Part shown: positions 26,480 through 32,479 of the stretch, one piece after another
How the letters are laid out: the number at the start of each line of letters is the position of its first letter
Numbering within the stretch: position 1 is the first letter of the stretch
NCBI GenBank assembly: GCA_022446795.1
Contig: JAKVBX010000007.1
Location: 12,419 to 59,786, forward strand
Direction of reading: 5' to 3'
Source: Phycisphaerales bacterium
GTDB lineage: Bacteria; Planctomycetota; Phycisphaerae; Phycisphaerales; SM1A02
DNA: 47,368 nucleotides
Position numbers and translations under genes: made by a program
Notes under the pieces: model-generated
Told to the model about the DNA's origin: nothing
Database searches by the model: none
The model's input: only the letters and a program-made list of their open reading frames with translations

Positions 26480-26959
26480 TCAGGAGTGGCTGGCCGGGCT
26501 GATTCGTGGCTCCTGGTCCTGCGATCGCTGCCTGGCCTCGGCAATGCGCATTGGCATGAGATCAATGCAATCCAGGACGTCCTGGGGGGCCACCGGCGAG
26601 GAAGACCGCTCTTTGACCTGTCCATCCTTGCCGATCAGGATCACCTGGAACGAGTCGGTCGAGATCGAGTATCGCTCGGTAATGGACCCCGGTTCGGGGG
26701 ACCAAGTTGCGGCTGGATGGTCGGGATCTCTGGCGATGGTCAACATCACGGTGTCACGTTCTCGAAGTTCGCTTTCCACCTCGAGGAATCGGTCTCGTTG
26801 ACGCTGCACCTCCTCTTCGCTTCCGGAGATGATGATGAGGCGATACTGCCAATGGCGATTGGCAAACCAGTTGGAATCGTGAGTATCGGGCATGATCCAA
26901 TGAACTCCAGTAGGGCTGAGCAGGAGAGCAAGAACGAAGATGGCGGCCAGGCGTGTCAT
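26480..26959 (-). CDS. DUF4174 protein, exported
   Basis: A 159-residue protein with an N-terminal signal peptide (about 1-20). The C-terminal part matches the DUF4174 pattern: a W-x-x-R-L-I-I-I strand (HWQYRLIIIS), a helix with repeated Q/R/E (VQRQRDRFLEVESELRERD), and the characteristic end 'VILIGKDGQVKER...IDLMPMRIAEA', in which a thioredoxin-like strand is followed by the MPMR motif. Function of the family is unknown. Its start overlaps the photolyase stop by one base (TGATG), so it is translationally coupled to a DNA-repair gene, an unusual context for an exported protein. Confidence 0.8.
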   Translation of the reverse strand: MTRLAAIFVLALLLSPTGVHWIMPDTHDSNWFANRHWQYRLIIISGSEEEVQRQRDRFLEVESELRERDTVMLTIARDPDHPAATWSPEPGSITERYSISTDSFQVILIGKDGQVKERSSSPVAPQDVLDCIDLMPMRIAEARQRSQDQEPRISPASHS

Positions 26960-28350
26960 CAGGAAACGGACTCCAGGCCTTGACTGTGACTGGCTTTGAC
27001 CGCCTTGAAGGCTGCGATGGCGTTGCGACGGGATTCAGACAGGCTGACGATCGGCTCCAGTGACCCCGGGCTTCGATCAAGCCACGTTCTGAGATATTCG
27101 CCCCGGGGATCCCAGGTCTCTGCCTGGCGATCGGGGTTGAAGATCCGGAAGTAGGGCGCGGCATCGGTTCCGGTTGATGCAGCCCACTGCCAGCCACCGT
27201 TGTTGCTCGGGAAGTCGTAGTCCACCAGGTGATTGGCAAAGAAGGCCTCGCCTCGCCGCCAGTCGATCATCAGGTTCTTGGTCAGGAACATGGCCACGAT
27301 CATGCGGACTCGATTGTGCATCCAACCAGTCTTTGTCAGTTGGTTCATGCCAGCATCGACGATGTCAATTCCGGTCTGTCCCGTGGCCCAGGCATTGAAG
27401 TGGGATTCATCGCTGGACCATGGAATGTCTTTGGTCCATGACTGCATTGGCTTGTTCATCGAGACGACGGGGAAGAAGTGCATGACCTGGCGGTAGAACT
27501 CACGCCAGGCGAGTTCACTGAGCCAGCAGGCAGGCCCCTGGGGCCAGTTCGGCAGATCATCGCCGTAGGTGTCGAGAAGCCGGCGGACGGCGGTGACTGG
27601 AGAAATCGCACCGACCGCCAGGTAGGGCGACAGTGAACTGGTGCCGTCGAGCGAGGGCCAGTCCCGGTCGATGTGATACCGCTTGACGAAGCCGTCCAGG
27701 AACCGATCCAGTCGTCGAAGGGCTTCGTCGGTTCCGGCGGGCCAAAGTTCCTGTCCCGGCCACTCGGAATAGCCTTGGATGGAGTGGGGGATCTCCTCGG
27801 ATCGCGTGACGGGTTCGCTCAAGGCAATCAACGAATGAGGTACCGGGAGGCCATCTTCCTGCAGATGCCCTTCCCATCTTCTTCGGTACGGGGTGAACAC
27901 GCTGTACGGGCGGCCCTCTGCGGTTCGGACGGCGTCAATGGGGAGAATGGTGTCGCCGTGGTGCGTGACCAAGGTCATGCCCTGGTCATGCAGGTGGTCG
28001 GCAACGGTCTGGTCTCGTGCCTGCTCATCCAGGCCATGTTCCAGATTGACGTGCACCTCATCGCAGTGATGAGCCTGAACGACATCGGCGATCGTTTCCG
28101 TGATGTCATCAGTTTGCGTGATGGTCCTGATGAGCAGCGGGATACCCAGCCGGTCCAACTCGGGGCGGAGGGCCCTGAGGCAGTCCATCGTGAATGAGAC
28201 TCTCGGGTTTCCCCAGCCGTGCCGTCGCCATTGGTCGGGGCAGATGAGGAACAAGGCGATGCAACCATCACGTCCACGGGCCAGTGCGGCCGCGAGAGCG
28301 GGATTGTCGAGGACCCGAAGGTCGTTACGCAGCCAGATCAGTGTTCTCAT
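26959..28350 (-). CDS. phrB: Deoxyribodipyrimidine photolyase (class I, PhrB-type)
   Basis: Repairs UV-made cyclobutane pyrimidine dimers with blue light and FAD. The 463-residue protein has the N-terminal Rossmann-like photolyase domain (LIWLRNDLRVLDNPAL) and the C-terminal FAD-binding domain with 'LSPYLAVGAISP', 'WLSELAWREFYRQ', 'WMHNRVRMIVAMFLTKNL' and the GGWQWAASTGTDA signature followed by 'YFRIFNP'. These are features of CPD photolyases; a cryptochrome role is less likely. The start at 28350 lies inside the end of the SDR gene (26-base overlap), and the stop overlaps DUF4174, so all three genes form one tightly packed operon. Confidence 0.93.
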   Translation of the reverse strand: MRTLIWLRNDLRVLDNPALAAALARGRDGCIALFLICPDQWRRHGWGNPRVSFTMDCLRALRPELDRLGIPLLIRTITQTDDITETIADVVQAHHCDEVHVNLEHGLDEQARDQTVADHLHDQGMTLVTHHGDTILPIDAVRTAEGRPYSVFTPYRRRWEGHLQEDGLPVPHSLIALSEPVTRSEEIPHSIQGYSEWPGQELWPAGTDEALRRLDRFLDGFVKRYHIDRDWPSLDGTSSLSPYLAVGAISPVTAVRRLLDTYGDDLPNWPQGPACWLSELAWREFYRQVMHFFPVVSMNKPMQSWTKDIPWSSDESHFNAWATGQTGIDIVDAGMNQLTKTGWMHNRVRMIVAMFLTKNLMIDWRRGEAFFANHLVDYDFPSNNGGWQWAASTGTDAAPYFRIFNPDRQAETWDPRGEYLRTWLDRSPGSLEPIVSLSESRRNAIAAFKAVKASHSQGLESVS

Positions 28351-29845
28351 GAGTCATGTCCGATGGTGGCAGTGACCCCCCAATGGTCTGTTGTTCTGCT
28401 TCTCGCTTGATGCCCTTGAGCATTCCGGTGAAGACGATGCCGTGAAGTGGCTTGACGCTGTACCAGTAGAGGATCCCGGTGAGTCCCTTGGGCCGGAACG
28501 TGGCGACCTGTGTCAGGATCGAACCGCCGGGATTGTCCGGGTCCTCGGTCATGTCGAACTCCAGGGTCGCCTTCCCGGGGAGCCGCATCTCCGCATAGAG
28601 GCGCAGTCGACGGCCGGGGCTGGCATCCATGACACGCCAGAAGTCCAACGCGTCGCCACAGGCGATCTCGCGATTGTCCCGGCGTCCACGTCGCAGGCCG
28701 GGGCCGCCAACCAACTGGTCCATCGTCCCGCGGATACGCCAGAGCCAGTCGGCCGCGTAATACCCATGCCCGCCGCCGATGATCTTCACGGCTTCGTATA
28801 CGGACTCGGGGCTGGCATCGACCCTGGCGGTCCGCTCGTCGATGAAGGTCCGACCACCGGACCAGTCCGGGTCGCCGGGTACGGGGCCGGCATCCAACCA
28901 GGATGTGGCCACTTCATTGGAGGCTTCATGCTGCAGTGCGGATCGAATCGCCTGCCGCGGTGAGGATGGTTCGTGCGGCATGAGCACGTTTGCCTGGTCG
29001 TTGCGACAGACGACCGTGTTGGCGAGGCCATCGGCGAGTGGCCGGGCGATCCGGGCGCCAACGGGCGTGACCATGTGGATCCAGTAGGAACTGAGCCGTG
29101 GGCTGAGTACCGGAACGGGAATGACGAGTCGCTTCGGCAGATTCAGTTCTTCGGCAACAATGGCCATCAGTTCCCGGTAGGTCACGACCTCGGCGCCTCC
29201 GATATCGATGGCCCGTGAGGTGGTCTCGGGGACGTTCAGGCATTCTTCCAGGTAATAGAGGACATCGATGATCGAGATGGGCTGGCACTTCGTGTGAACC
29301 CACCGGGGTGTGACCATCACCGGAAGTCGCTCGACGAGATATCGCAGGATTTCGAATGAGGCCGAGCCGGAACCAATGATCATGGCAGCCCGCAGTACCG
29401 TCAGGGAGACACCGGCCTGGGCCAGTGTTTCCTCGACGCGGCGGCGGGAAGTCAGGTGGTGACTCAGGCCATCGCCCAGTTCGCCCAGGCCTCCGAGATA
29501 GATGATTCGTTTGATCCCGGCGGCTCTTGCGGCGGCGGCGAAGTTCGAGGCCAACTGCTGGTCGACTCGGTCGTAATCGCGTCCGGCCGTGATCATCGAG
29601 TGCACCAGGTAGTAGGCGGTGGTGCATCCACGCAGGGCCTCGGTCAACTGGCCTACATCCGACATGTCGGTTTCCGTCATGTCGAGGTTGTCATGCTCCG
29701 ACCAGTGCCGTCCGGCCAGCTTTCGCGTGTTCCTCACCAGGCATCGCACTCGATGGCCGCCGTCGAGCAGCCGCGGGGCGAGCCGGCCGCCGACGTATCC
29801 GGTGGCGCCGGTCAGGGCGATGCATTGAGGCTCGGAAGTGGTCAT
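28325..29845 (-). CDS. SDR-family NAD(P)-binding protein with DUF2867 domain
   Basis: A 506-residue protein in two parts. The N-terminal half is an extended/atypical short-chain dehydrogenase with the NAD(P) loop GATGYVGGRL (about 14-23), a 'CLVRN' dinucleotide-binding site and 'YLGGLGELG'. The C-terminal half (about 330-490) is DUF2867, seen in 'GGGHGYYAADWLWRIRG' and 'GDALDFWRV' and 'LYWYSVKPLH'. Proteins with this layout commonly sit beside photolyase genes and are often light- or stress-regulated, which fits the downstream phrB. The reaction is unknown. No Shine-Dalgarno or clear promoter is seen immediately upstream; a stable hairpin lies 37 bases above the start. Confidence 0.88.
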   Translation of the reverse strand: MTTSEPQCIALTGATGYVGGRLAPRLLDGGHRVRCLVRNTRKLAGRHWSEHDNLDMTETDMSDVGQLTEALRGCTTAYYLVHSMITAGRDYDRVDQQLASNFAAAARAAGIKRIIYLGGLGELGDGLSHHLTSRRRVEETLAQAGVSLTVLRAAMIIGSGSASFEILRYLVERLPVMVTPRWVHTKCQPISIIDVLYYLEECLNVPETTSRAIDIGGAEVVTYRELMAIVAEELNLPKRLVIPVPVLSPRLSSYWIHMVTPVGARIARPLADGLANTVVCRNDQANVLMPHEPSSPRQAIRSALQHEASNEVATSWLDAGPVPGDPDWSGGRTFIDERTARVDASPESVYEAVKIIGGGHGYYAADWLWRIRGTMDQLVGGPGLRRGRRDNREIACGDALDFWRVMDASPGRRLRLYAEMRLPGKATLEFDMTEDPDNPGGSILTQVATFRPKGLTGILYWYSVKPLHGIVFTGMLKGIKREAEQQTIGGSLPPSDMTHENTDLAA

Positions 29846-30469: not shown

Positions 30470-31399
30470 TCAGCTGCCCGACGAGTTCTTGGCTGTTGAG
30501 GCGGCAGCCGCGCTCGCCGGCGGAAGCATGACGGAATCGATCACGTGAATGACCCCGTTTGAAGCATCGATGTCTGCCATGACGACGCGTGCATTGTTCA
30601 CGTGCACTCCATCGCGGTTGGACTTGAACGATGCGGGATTACCTTGGAGGGTCTTGGCCGTGCCGGCCTTGATGGCGTCGTCGCTGTACACGCGTCCCGG
30701 GACGACGTGGTAGGTCAGGATCGCAGCGAGCTTGTCCTTGTTCTCAGGCTTCAGCAGGGACTCGACGGTTCCCGCGGGGAGCTTCGCGAATGCTTCGTCG
30801 GTCGGGGCGAAGACCGTCAGGGGGCCCTTCGCAGAGAGGGCCTCGACGAGTCCAGCAGCCTCGGCCGCGGCCAGGAGCGTGGCGAACTGACCGGTCTTGG
30901 TCGCCGTCTCCGGGATGTTCATCTTGGCCGGGAGCATCACGGTGTCGATGACGTGGATCGTGCCGTTGGACGTCTTGATGTCGGTGATGACGATCTTGGA
31001 GGCGTCAGCCTTGGCGCCAGCATCACACGAGGAGATGTCGATGCGCTGGCCGTTGGCCGTCGTCCAGCCGGACTTGGCCAGGACATCGCGAGCCATGAGG
31101 TTGCCGGGTACGACGTGGTAGAGCAGGACGTTCTTGAGGGCCGTCTTGTTCTCGGGCTTCAGCAACGTCTCCACGGTCCCGCGGGGGAGCTTGGCAAAGG
31201 CCGCGTCGGTCGGTGCAAAAACGGTGAACTGGCCCGAGCCGTTGAGGGTCTCGGTGAGGCCCGCGGCATCTACTGCGGCAACCAGGGTCTGGAATCGACC
31301 ATCGGCAGCGGCTGTCTCGGCGATCGTGGGCATGGACCCGCCACAGCTCTGTCCAAGCGAGAGCAGGGTGGAGGCAAACAGGGTGGTCATTGGAGTCAT
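30470..31399 (-). CDS. Exported protein with two fasciclin (FAS1) domains
   Basis: A 309-residue protein with a signal peptide (about 1-20). Two FAS1 domains follow in tandem (about 22-160 and 161-300). Each shows the H1 motif FTVFAPTDAAFAKLP or LTVFAPTDEAFAKLP, the repeated 'PENK' turn, the 'YHVVPG' segment, and the H2 motif 'GTIHVIDTVMLP' or 'GVIHVIDSVMLP'. FAS1 domains bind surfaces, polymers or other proteins. Fasciclin genes are often next to photolyase and B12-type light regulators, as here. AGAAGGGAT precedes the ATG; a promoter TTGAAA-N17-TACTGT lies further upstream. Confidence 0.92.
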   Translation of the reverse strand: MTPMTTLFASTLLSLGQSCGGSMPTIAETAAADGRFQTLVAAVDAAGLTETLNGSGQFTVFAPTDAAFAKLPRGTVETLLKPENKTALKNVLLYHVVPGNLMARDVLAKSGWTTANGQRIDISSCDAGAKADASKIVITDIKTSNGTIHVIDTVMLPAKMNIPETATKTGQFATLLAAAEAAGLVEALSAKGPLTVFAPTDEAFAKLPAGTVESLLKPENKDKLAAILTYHVVPGRVYSDDAIKAGTAKTLQGNPASFKSNRDGVHVNNARVVMADIDASNGVIHVIDSVMLPPASAAAASTAKNSSGS

Positions 31400-31436
31400 T
31401 GCACGTATCCCTTCTGGGTGCTTGATTCATTCATAC

Positions 31437-31465
31437 TGACCAAAACGGTCAATTCGTTCACTTCA
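31437..31465. promoter_or_regulatory. Candidate operator over the fasciclin transcription start
   Basis: An inverted repeat TGACC-N5-GGTCA (31437-31451) overlaps 9-base-spaced TCA repeats (31449 and 31458). It lies between the divergent fasciclin and CarH-like genes. Confidence 0.4.
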
Positions 31466-31470
31466 TTGGG

Positions 31471-31499
31471 ACAGTAAAGCCGCTGAATGACTCTTTCAA
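31471..31499 (-). promoter_or_regulatory. Promoter of the fasciclin gene
   Basis: TTGAAA (31494-31499), a 17-base spacer and TACTGT (31471-31476) on the minus strand. The predicted start at about 31464 places the repeat elements at 31437-31465 over and just below it, a position that suits repression. Confidence 0.55.
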
Positions 31500-31519
31500 G
31501 GGGCAAACGGCAAAAAACA

Positions 31520-31567
31520 TTCAAAACGTTCATTCTGTCCATTCTGAGATCTAGATGACGATATAGT
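31520..31567 (+). promoter_or_regulatory. Triple 9-bp direct repeat and TATAGT box of the CarH-like gene
   Basis: Three head-to-tail 9-mers: TTCAAAACG, TTCATTCTG and TCCATTCTG (31520-31546). They cover the -35 region of a TATAGT box (31562-31567) that lies 6 bases before the ATG at 31574. CarH-type regulators bind direct repeats over the promoter, so this may be an autoregulatory operator. Confidence 0.45.
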
Positions 31568-31573
31568 CCCAAC

Positions 31574-32479
31574 ATGGAATCGGTCTCTGTCAACCGGCTC
31601 GTGTCGCCCCGCAACTTGGCTGAGGCCATTGGGATGAGCGAGTCGTCGCTCAAGCGATGGGCGGATCGGGGTCTTCTCACGGTCACTCGGACCGCTGGGG
31701 GGCACCGGCGAATTGCCCTTCGGGACGCCATCCGATTCGTGCGTGAGCGGCAGCTGAAGCTCCTGCAACCGGTGGCGATTGGCCTCCCGGCTCTTGATGC
31801 GGACGTGCAGGTCGATGTGGCAGAAGTGGACGAGGCCCTGCTGGCTCACCTCTCGGCGGGTCGGGCGTCGGCCGCCTGGCACCTGCTGATGGGTCAGTTT
31901 CTCGATGGCAGGAGCATTGCCGAGATTGGGGATGGCCCGGTCAAGGCCGCTCTTCGGGAACTCGGTTCCCGATGGACTCACGATTCGACCGGTATCTTCA
32001 TTGAGCACCGGGCGACGGACCTGTGTATCCAGATCATCCAACAGATGCGATTGCTTGTGAACAGGTCCGACACCACATTCCGCGCCATCGGTGGTGCCGT
32101 TGGGCCGGATCCGTACATTCTTCCGAGCATGCTCGTCGCCTGTGTGATCTCGGAGCAGGGTGGCGACGCGACCAACCTGGGTCCAAACACACCGCTTGAT
32201 GTGTTGCGTACGGCCAGCCTTGGCCAGGATGAGTCGCCTGATCTCGTGTGGATCTCCACCAGCGTGGTCAAGGATCCCGGCGAATTGTCACGCGACATCT
32301 CGAACTTCGCCCGGGAGTGCCAATCGGCAGGTGTTCAGGTAGCCGTTGGTGGACGGGAAGCGGCTCAACTGTCGCTGGATCATGTTCCCGGCTTGACCGT
32401 GCACGGCTCGCTGGCCGGGTTCGCTGAACTGGCCCAGTCCATCATGAAATCAGGTTCACCGTCTGCTACCGGCGAGTGA
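31574..32479 (+). CDS. MerR/CarH-like B12-type regulator lacking the canonical ligand His
   Basis: A 301-residue regulator. Residues 10-60 are a MerR winged helix (LAEAIGMSESSLKRW and GGHRRI). About 85-165 is a helical bundle with W134-x9-E144-H145, the signature of adenosylcobalamin light sensors of the CarH/LitR family. The C-terminal Rossmann-like B12 domain (about 170-295) has D198-A-T-N-L-G203 where the family has E/D-x-H-x-x-G: the lower-ligand His is Thr200. It may therefore bind cobalamin without His, bind another ligand, or act as an apo-repressor, as some CarA-type proteins do. It is divergent to fasciclin and near photolyase, which fits a light-response role. Its start has TATAGT 6 bases upstream and no Shine-Dalgarno. 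Confidence 0.85.
   Translation: MESVSVNRLVSPRNLAEAIGMSESSLKRWADRGLLTVTRTAGGHRRIALRDAIRFVRERQLKLLQPVAIGLPALDADVQVDVAEVDEALLAHLSAGRASAAWHLLMGQFLDGRSIAEIGDGPVKAALRELGSRWTHDSTGIFIEHRATDLCIQIIQQMRLLVNRSDTTFRAIGGAVGPDPYILPSMLVACVISEQGGDATNLGPNTPLDVLRTASLGQDESPDLVWISTSVVKDPGELSRDISNFARECQSAGVQVAVGGREAAQLSLDHVPGLTVHGSLAGFAELAQSIMKSGSPSATGE

Follow-up and report, generated by a model that had tools for sequence, protein, structure and literature searches.

Tyrosine at the cobalt-ligand position and 9-bp direct repeats upstream in a separate clade of CarH-like regulators

Among B12 photoreceptors CarH serves as the model, and its lower histidine belongs to its definition as well as to the published light-response signature (PMC11796333). 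The window analysed here, i.e. the whole stretch of 47,368 nucleotides from a Phycisphaerales bacterium, encodes a regulator that looks like a CarH deprived of this histidine. What could such a protein hold in its sensor domain, which DNA would it recognize, and which genes would it control? The genome carrying the window amounts to 3.54 Mb in 78 contigs, and the nearest named relatives of the regulator come from metagenome bins of Phycisphaerae/Phycisphaerales. The initial annotation, made from the letters of this DNA, had the open reading frame right (31574-32479, + strand, 301 aa), and likewise the numbering of W134, E144, H145, D198, T200 and G203. The gene and its DNA-binding region are the following (window positions):

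31574..32479, + strand: CarH-like regulator of 301 aa, with a BldC/MerR-type HTH, a four-helix bundle and a B12-type Rossmann domain (ATG open reading frame, profile searches, AlphaFold2 model)
31604..31717, + strand: HTH region, residues 11-48 (SESSLKRW...TAGGHRRIA), best matched by BldC-type models and not of the WERRYG type of CarH

In Pfam, the MerR-type HTH of the regulator falls slightly below the cut-off and the B12-binding domain is matched at an E-value of 0.068 only. The NCBIfam CarH equivalog gives 31.9 bits for a cut-off of 400—a value that no protein of 199 planctomycete genomes exceeded—and the NCBIfam BldC model NF033787 matches the HTH (E 6.7e-7) with 29.1 bits, below its cut-off of 77. 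Among solved structures the best relative found by HMMER is CtMerR (8jbs, E 1.8e-20), then TtCarH/LitR (E 3e-4). The AlphaFold2 model (mean pLDDT 93.7) predicts a complete Rossmann domain, with residues 75-295 matched to CtMerR, the best structural match (8jbt: Z 20.2, rmsd 2.8, 217 aligned); the photocobilin (8j2x: Z 19.7, rmsd 2.7, 206 aligned), TtCarH (5c8d: Z 17.4, rmsd 3.0, 199 aligned) and the SCHIC domain of AppA (4heh: Z 15.8, rmsd 3.3, 200 aligned) come next. A PADLOC match of the regulator to mad1 (E 2.9e-7) was rejected: it covers the HTH only, residues 8-59. Besides, the same genome encodes a second B12-Rossmann-type protein, of 241 aa and without MerR HTH (L003:1393-2118, - strand, contig G000:C23), which by eye reads ATEVDDLAAQ where DxHxxG is expected.

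That the lower-ligand histidine is absent, as the initial annotation had claimed, is borne out by the alignments; the site at which it had been declared missing is not. Two stretches of the Rossmann domain are concerned:

32108..32125, + strand: ligand-motif position D179-P-Y181-I-L-P184, tyrosine replacing the cobalt-ligating histidine (alignment to TtCarH and CtMerR)
32165..32182, + strand: D198-G203, second Rossmann strand and not the ligand motif (alignment, model, column variability)

In the HMMER alignments, GPDPYILPSML of the regulator stands opposite PGERHEIGAML of TtCarH (3whp/5c8d) and EGDLHEIALHL of CtMerR (8jbs), so that the ligand histidine corresponds to Tyr181; D198-ATNL-G203 is aligned with the 'VPALYLG' strand, which runs into LGPNTP. 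In the AlphaFold2 model a strand (169-175) comes first, then Tyr181 directly before the helix 182-194, and residues 197-201 are predicted as a strand. The earlier reading of D198-A-T-N-L-G203 as the B12 motif, with Thr200 as ligand position, has for it the letter pattern of one sequence, and is contradicted by the TtCarH and CtMerR alignments, by the strand of the model and by column 200, mainly Val/Ile (over the 131 Tyr rows described below: Val 64, Ile 21, Thr 17, Met 10): we consider it as practically abandoned. With such a variable column Thr200 does not define a clade, as had been suggested; Tyr181, together with Trp226 and Pro184, marks one. A true DxHxxG was sought elsewhere in the domain and none was found: [D/E]xH, and with it the CarH lower-ligand motif D/ExHx2G/P, is absent from the entire protein.

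Is this tyrosine peculiar to one genome? Relatives were collected by scanning genome contigs with two HTH patterns, which do not include the ligand motif, and of the 410 found the best 80, skewed to close ones, were retained as loci. In the 85 rows of this near set (the window plus the loci of the best 80 of 410 relatives) the ligand column is occupied by Tyr in 81 and by His in 4, of which one, in locus L093, is a fragment of the canonical type. It is His in 30/30 canonical planctomycete CarH-like loci, for which His was partly expected, as they had been selected as the best matches to the CarH model in 199 planctomycete genomes. The row set was enlarged by loci from two more searches, which covered 294 planctomycete genomes, and was reduced from 208 to 180 rows by dropping near-duplicates; among these 180 distinct rows, 131 have Tyr, 40 have His and 9 another residue.

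A tree was built from 179 rows, leaving out TtCarH, which has too few filled columns, and excluding the motif columns 177-186; it is a tree of the quick type that lacks bootstraps, contains two long branches and had its root set manually at a canonical row. In this tree a single branch (SH-aLRT 99) gathers 145 of the 179 rows: all 131 Tyr rows, 5 His rows and the 9 others (Gly 3, Ser 2, Phe 1, Cys 1, Thr 1, Asp 1). CtMerR joins next to this branch (SH-aLRT 92). The regulator thus falls within a separate clade of CarH-like transcription factors, marked by Tyr instead of His (D-P-Y-x-L-P), and, at the level of sequence, Tyr181 is a feature of the clade at large and not a local decay. Among the best 80 of 410 loci, 56 belong to Planctomycetota, 9 to Myxococcota, 8 to Acidobacteriota, one each to Gemmatimonadota, Verrucomicrobiota and Rhodothermota, and 4 are unassigned. 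No description of a clade with Tyr at the CarH ligand position was found in the titles and abstract beginnings searched, subscription journals being mostly outside this search.

His occurs at four separate places within the Tyr-type branch (L080; L105; L113 with L180; L170). As the passage from Tyr to His needs a single base change, this pattern hints at a role as ligand and no more. At the opposite, the 9 of 145 clade rows with Gly, Ser, Thr, Phe, Cys or Asp suggest that a ligand at this column is not indispensable. In a few places clade regulators are found as adjacent paralogous pairs (L069, L082 and L093; contigs G142:C96 and G247:C1), and L093 carries on its other strand two further relatives, one Tyr-type and one of the canonical His type.

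What remains of the CarH pocket around this tyrosine? Three elements can be located in the gene:

31973..32008, + strand: Wx9EH motif, W134 to E144-H145, upper-face cap in CarH and present as in CarH (sequence)
32249..32263, + strand: clade-specific Trp226, then S228-x-S230 of the nucleotide-tail signature (alignment)
32348..32353, + strand: G259-G260 of the nucleotide-tail signature (alignment)

W134 and E144-H145 of the helical bundle are intact, as first annotated, and this holds for most of the clade. Over the 131 Tyr rows the upper-pocket columns keep G131 in 130, W134 in 117 (7 gaps), E144 in 131 and H145 in 119; the motif columns keep D179 in 130, P180 in 104 and P184 in 120; G203 and P207 are kept in 131 each; the tail-pocket columns keep S228 and S230 in 106 each, G259 and G260 in 129 each (2 gaps each). 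S228-T-S230 and G259-G260 align with the canonical elements, so that the SxT/V...GG signature is found, with a spacing different from that of the textbook motif. ER replaces EH in 12 of the 131, rows that make up a planctomycete subclade with Tyr (L175-L179, L181, L182, L184, L186, L200, L201, L204). The published light-response signature consists of GxxW, EH, GxxH and GxxxP (PMC11796333): three of these four elements are retained by the clade, GxxH being GxxY in most members and PxxY in the window protein. Two residues distinguish the Tyr rows from the His rows: Trp226, in 127/131 versus 5/40, these five all lying inside the clade, and His136, two residues past W134, in 81/131 versus 1/40. 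Since the pocket is retained, something should still be bound or packed there; Tyr181 along with Trp226 suggests that this occupant is not bound as in CarH, and Trp226 may fill the nucleotide-tail pocket.

Upstream of the clade genes we found tandem 9-bp direct repeats of consensus TCGTTCAAATCGTTCA. In the window they form two arrays:

31441..31460, + strand: candidate operator array 1, tandem 9-bp direct repeats (site 31445-31460, ACGGTCAATTCGTTCA; operator model)
31513..31541, + strand: candidate operator array 2, tandem 9-bp direct repeats (site 31517-31532, ACATTCAAAACGTTCA; operator model)

These two sites, of at least 16 bits each, are 72 bp apart and both lie within the 174 bp between the regulator and a fasciclin gene. 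Paired arrays 62-73 bp apart are also found upstream in L035, L037, L041, L043, L045, L046, L063, L097 and L107; such predicted pairs could serve cooperative binding or the formation of a loop. A hand-made seed was the start of the operator model; the period tests do not depend on it. Autocorrelation upstream of 83 clade genes gives 600 at 9 bp for 84.8 expected from single-base shuffles (z 39), with an echo at 18 bp (z 9.9), the next-highest lag being 20 (z 3.7). When 124 de-duplicated clade upstreams are compared with a first-order Markov null, the count at 9 bp is 987 versus 225.5 (z 35.5), for a z of 3.0 at 11 bp. The 30 canonical CarH-like upstreams (L114-L143) display a weaker 9-bp signal (117 versus 65.1, z 4.3), and a z of 4.0 at 21 bp.

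The sites themselves follow the clade. Those of at least 19 bits are present in 79 of 124 clade upstreams, the remaining 45 being below this threshold, and in 0/30 canonical ones; a model trained on 57 planctomycete upstreams holds for other phyla too, with such a site in 14 of their 21 upstreams (null 0.1%). Over 1,270,803 bases of the best 80 of 410 loci, 90 model sites are counted, 62 of them near a regulator start, and 0 in a shuffled copy. With at most two mismatches the own genome contains 7 operator-like sites, 2 of them at the window promoter, and 0 for the reversed pattern; because each of the remaining 5 falls within a mechanical open frame of at least 139 aa, no distant regulon target is claimed. 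A promoter scan of 31380-31620 returned no sigma-70-like site. BldC is described as binding 9-bp direct repeats head-to-tail (PMC5859096), the TtCarH operator as consisting of 11-bp repeats (PMC8156234): the site at the window gene has the 9-bp spacing of the BldC type, not the 11-bp one of CarH. As both the ligand histidine and the 11-bp operator are missing, we file the regulator as a variant of the CarH/LitR kind and not as a CarH, which is not to say that a Tyr-type regulator could not work like one; it may.

The genes lying beyond the arrays are transcribed away from the regulator:

30470..31399, - strand: divergent gene with two fasciclin domains (domain annotation)
28325..29845, - strand: NmrA/SDR-type protein with DUF2867 (domain annotation)
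26959..28350, - strand: DNA photolyase, whose gene shares 26 bp with the SDR gene (domain annotation)

Similar company recurs in the best 80 of 410 loci: photolyase (26), fasciclin (16), SDR-DUF2867 (14), GTP cyclohydrolase I (13), more rarely SDR-DUF1731 (7) and DUF4397 (6), and MarC, SOUL, cyclopropane synthase and amine oxidase (4 each). At least one of these ten families is present in 50/80 loci and none in 30/80, several loci being just a few kb long. In two of the 80 a SOUL-family gene, of the heme-binding type, is divergent to the regulator (L078:8976-9812 and L083:3-530, both - strand). No carotenoid gene figures among the annotated neighbour families. The set resembles bacterial photoprotection genes, since class II LitR governs similar light-inducible genes: phrB, folE, ufaM and cryB in Pseudomonas putida, as reported (PMC9758184). 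As for cofactor supply, a cob(I)alamin adenosyltransferase is encoded in the own genome; the PduO type is found in 96 of 101 genomes searched and the BtuR type in 0/101. The PduO-lacking genomes (G013, G015, G023, G033 and G059) have no strong match to the window protein, and five are too few to be used.

How could these features work together? Probably the regulator controls the neighbouring DNA-repair and light-protection genes through the 9-bp repeated site; the likeliest reading is a repressor that acts on photoprotection genes and on its own gene and has its sensor pocket still occupied, though not in the His-on manner of CarH. It would bind the tandem TCGTTCAAATCGTTCA repeats head-to-tail in the promoter shared with the divergent genes, and once bound would repress these genes and its own; we infer repression rather than activation. 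The CarH-type pocket would be occupied, most likely by a base-off corrinoid without His-on ligation, Tyr181 either coordinating the cobalt or merely packing beneath. In one state—by analogy, the dark one—an oligomer on the 9-bp repeats would block the divergent promoters, and light or photo-oxidative stress would alter the sensor pocket and the oligomer, with release of the DNA. A light response is suggested by the photoprotection genes in the vicinity and by CtMerR. The clade, the exchange of His for Tyr, the repeat arrays, the neighbouring genes and the predicted fold are results of computation, whereas binding of the regulator to these arrays, repression, the light input and especially the identity of the ligand are inferences. 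For the whole of this mechanism, from the Tyr-type clade and its operator to the repression, the base-off corrinoid and the release by light or stress, we estimate the probability at about 0.45.

The cofactor is the most debatable part, and the outcomes named in the initial annotation, i.e. binding through another residue, a different ligand or independence from B12, are those still to be weighed. A corrinoid without His-on ligation, in part with Tyr as a true ligand, is our first choice, slightly short of an even chance: the pocket is kept, an adenosyltransferase is at hand in the genome, and other Rossmann-type proteins are known to bind cobalamin base-off in the absence of His (PMC13331322). 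It is weakened by HaAI-2E, which has Arg at the ligand position and is described as binding OHCbl, neither AdoCbl nor MeCbl (PMC11796333), and by the nine clade rows with neither Tyr nor His. The mechanism as a whole further suffers from the possible filling of the tail pocket by Trp226, from the ER variants and from the loci without listed neighbours. No published case of Tyr as the lower cobalt ligand was found in the literature examined; Mmp10 was dismissed as a precedent, its Tyr23 being described on the upper side at 4.8 A, with Leu322 below (PMC8828468). That the clade constitutes a photoreceptor-repressor family of several phyla with Tyr (phenolate) as lower cobalamin ligand, possibly His136 as upper ligand in one state, and a BldC-like 9-bp code, seems unlikely when taken in all its parts.

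A serious rival, our second choice and somewhat less probable than the corrinoid, is a regulator independent of B12: the CarH-type domain would serve as an oligomerisation and partner-binding module, its pocket empty or filled by Tyr and Trp, and the signal would come from another protein, much as a short LOV protein is reported to act on class II LitR, or CarS on CarA. The clade-wide loss of His accompanied by the new Trp226 is what one would expect then, as are the non-ligating residues in a minority of members, and class II LitR, which works without B12 while controlling the P. putida genes cited above (PMC9758184), provides a precedent. However, the conservation of E144 (131/131), H145 (119/131) and GG (129/131) exceeds what oligomerisation alone would need; a LOV-like motif occurs in none of 1051 neighbour ORFs, for a simple pattern that diverged LOV proteins may escape; and CarA shows the opposite pattern, Trp lost and His kept (PMC9304148).

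In third place comes a tetrapyrrole of another kind (heme, protoporphyrin or a bilin), with Tyr181 as iron ligand and a sensitivity to light or redox. Tyrosine frequently serves as a ligand of heme. The predicted fold matches photocobilin (8j2x) and the SCHIC domain of AppA (4heh), described as heme-binding (PMC10734443), and a SOUL-family gene is a divergent neighbour in the two loci mentioned. On the other hand a ligand cannot be deduced from a common fold, SOUL genes accompany just 4/80 loci, and the corrin-type SxS/GG signature of the tail pocket, superfluous for heme, is kept; all this renders a tetrapyrrole other than a corrinoid distinctly improbable.

Returning to the corrinoid, if Tyr-ligated cobalamin is true the colour and the photochemistry of the sensor should differ from those of CarH; if the regulator is independent of B12, the CarH scaffold would have escaped its cofactor by a route opposite to that of CarA. 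The clade, spread over several phyla, is thus a natural experiment on the purpose of the lower ligand. A search requiring this His would miss it, since the rest of the signature is kept but not the His. Besides, a defined repeat operator is at hand for testing, and the clade could provide a new optogenetic part.

Compared with known systems, the regulator is closest to CtMerR of Chloracidobacterium thermophilum (8jbs/8jbt), with which it shares the KRW-type HTH, Wx9EH, LGPNTP and GG; CtMerR differs by its ligand His (GDLHEIA) and by a Cys at the Trp226 column, and is reported to bind AdoCbl and to respond to light, passing from tetramer to monomer (PMC11796333). TtCarH (CarH/class I LitR) has the same architecture—HTH, four-helix bundle, B12-type Rossmann domain—with Wx9EH and the tail-pocket signature; but CarH combines a DxH motif, 11-bp repeats and carotenoid genes, whereas the regulator combines no DxH, an apparently BldC-like HTH, 9-bp repeats and photolyase, fasciclin and SDR genes. 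BldC resembles it by similar 9-bp direct repeats (AATTCGGTC against AAATCGTTC) and perhaps by the HTH type, the NF033787 match being below the cut-off; it has no sensor domain, and the head-to-tail binding described for BldC is a proposal for the regulator. The class II LitR proteins (PmlR2, PplR1-3) are, like it, MerR-type regulators, in their case light regulators of photolyase and folE-type genes; they are said not to bind B12, having kept the helix-bundle domain alone (PMC9758184), whereas the model of the regulator includes the Rossmann domain that they lack. Finally CarA of Myxococcus xanthus is also a CarH relative whose cofactor signature is partly lost; it still has the His motif but no longer the Trp of Wx9EH (PMC9304148), and appears as the mirror image of the regulator, which keeps this Trp without the His.
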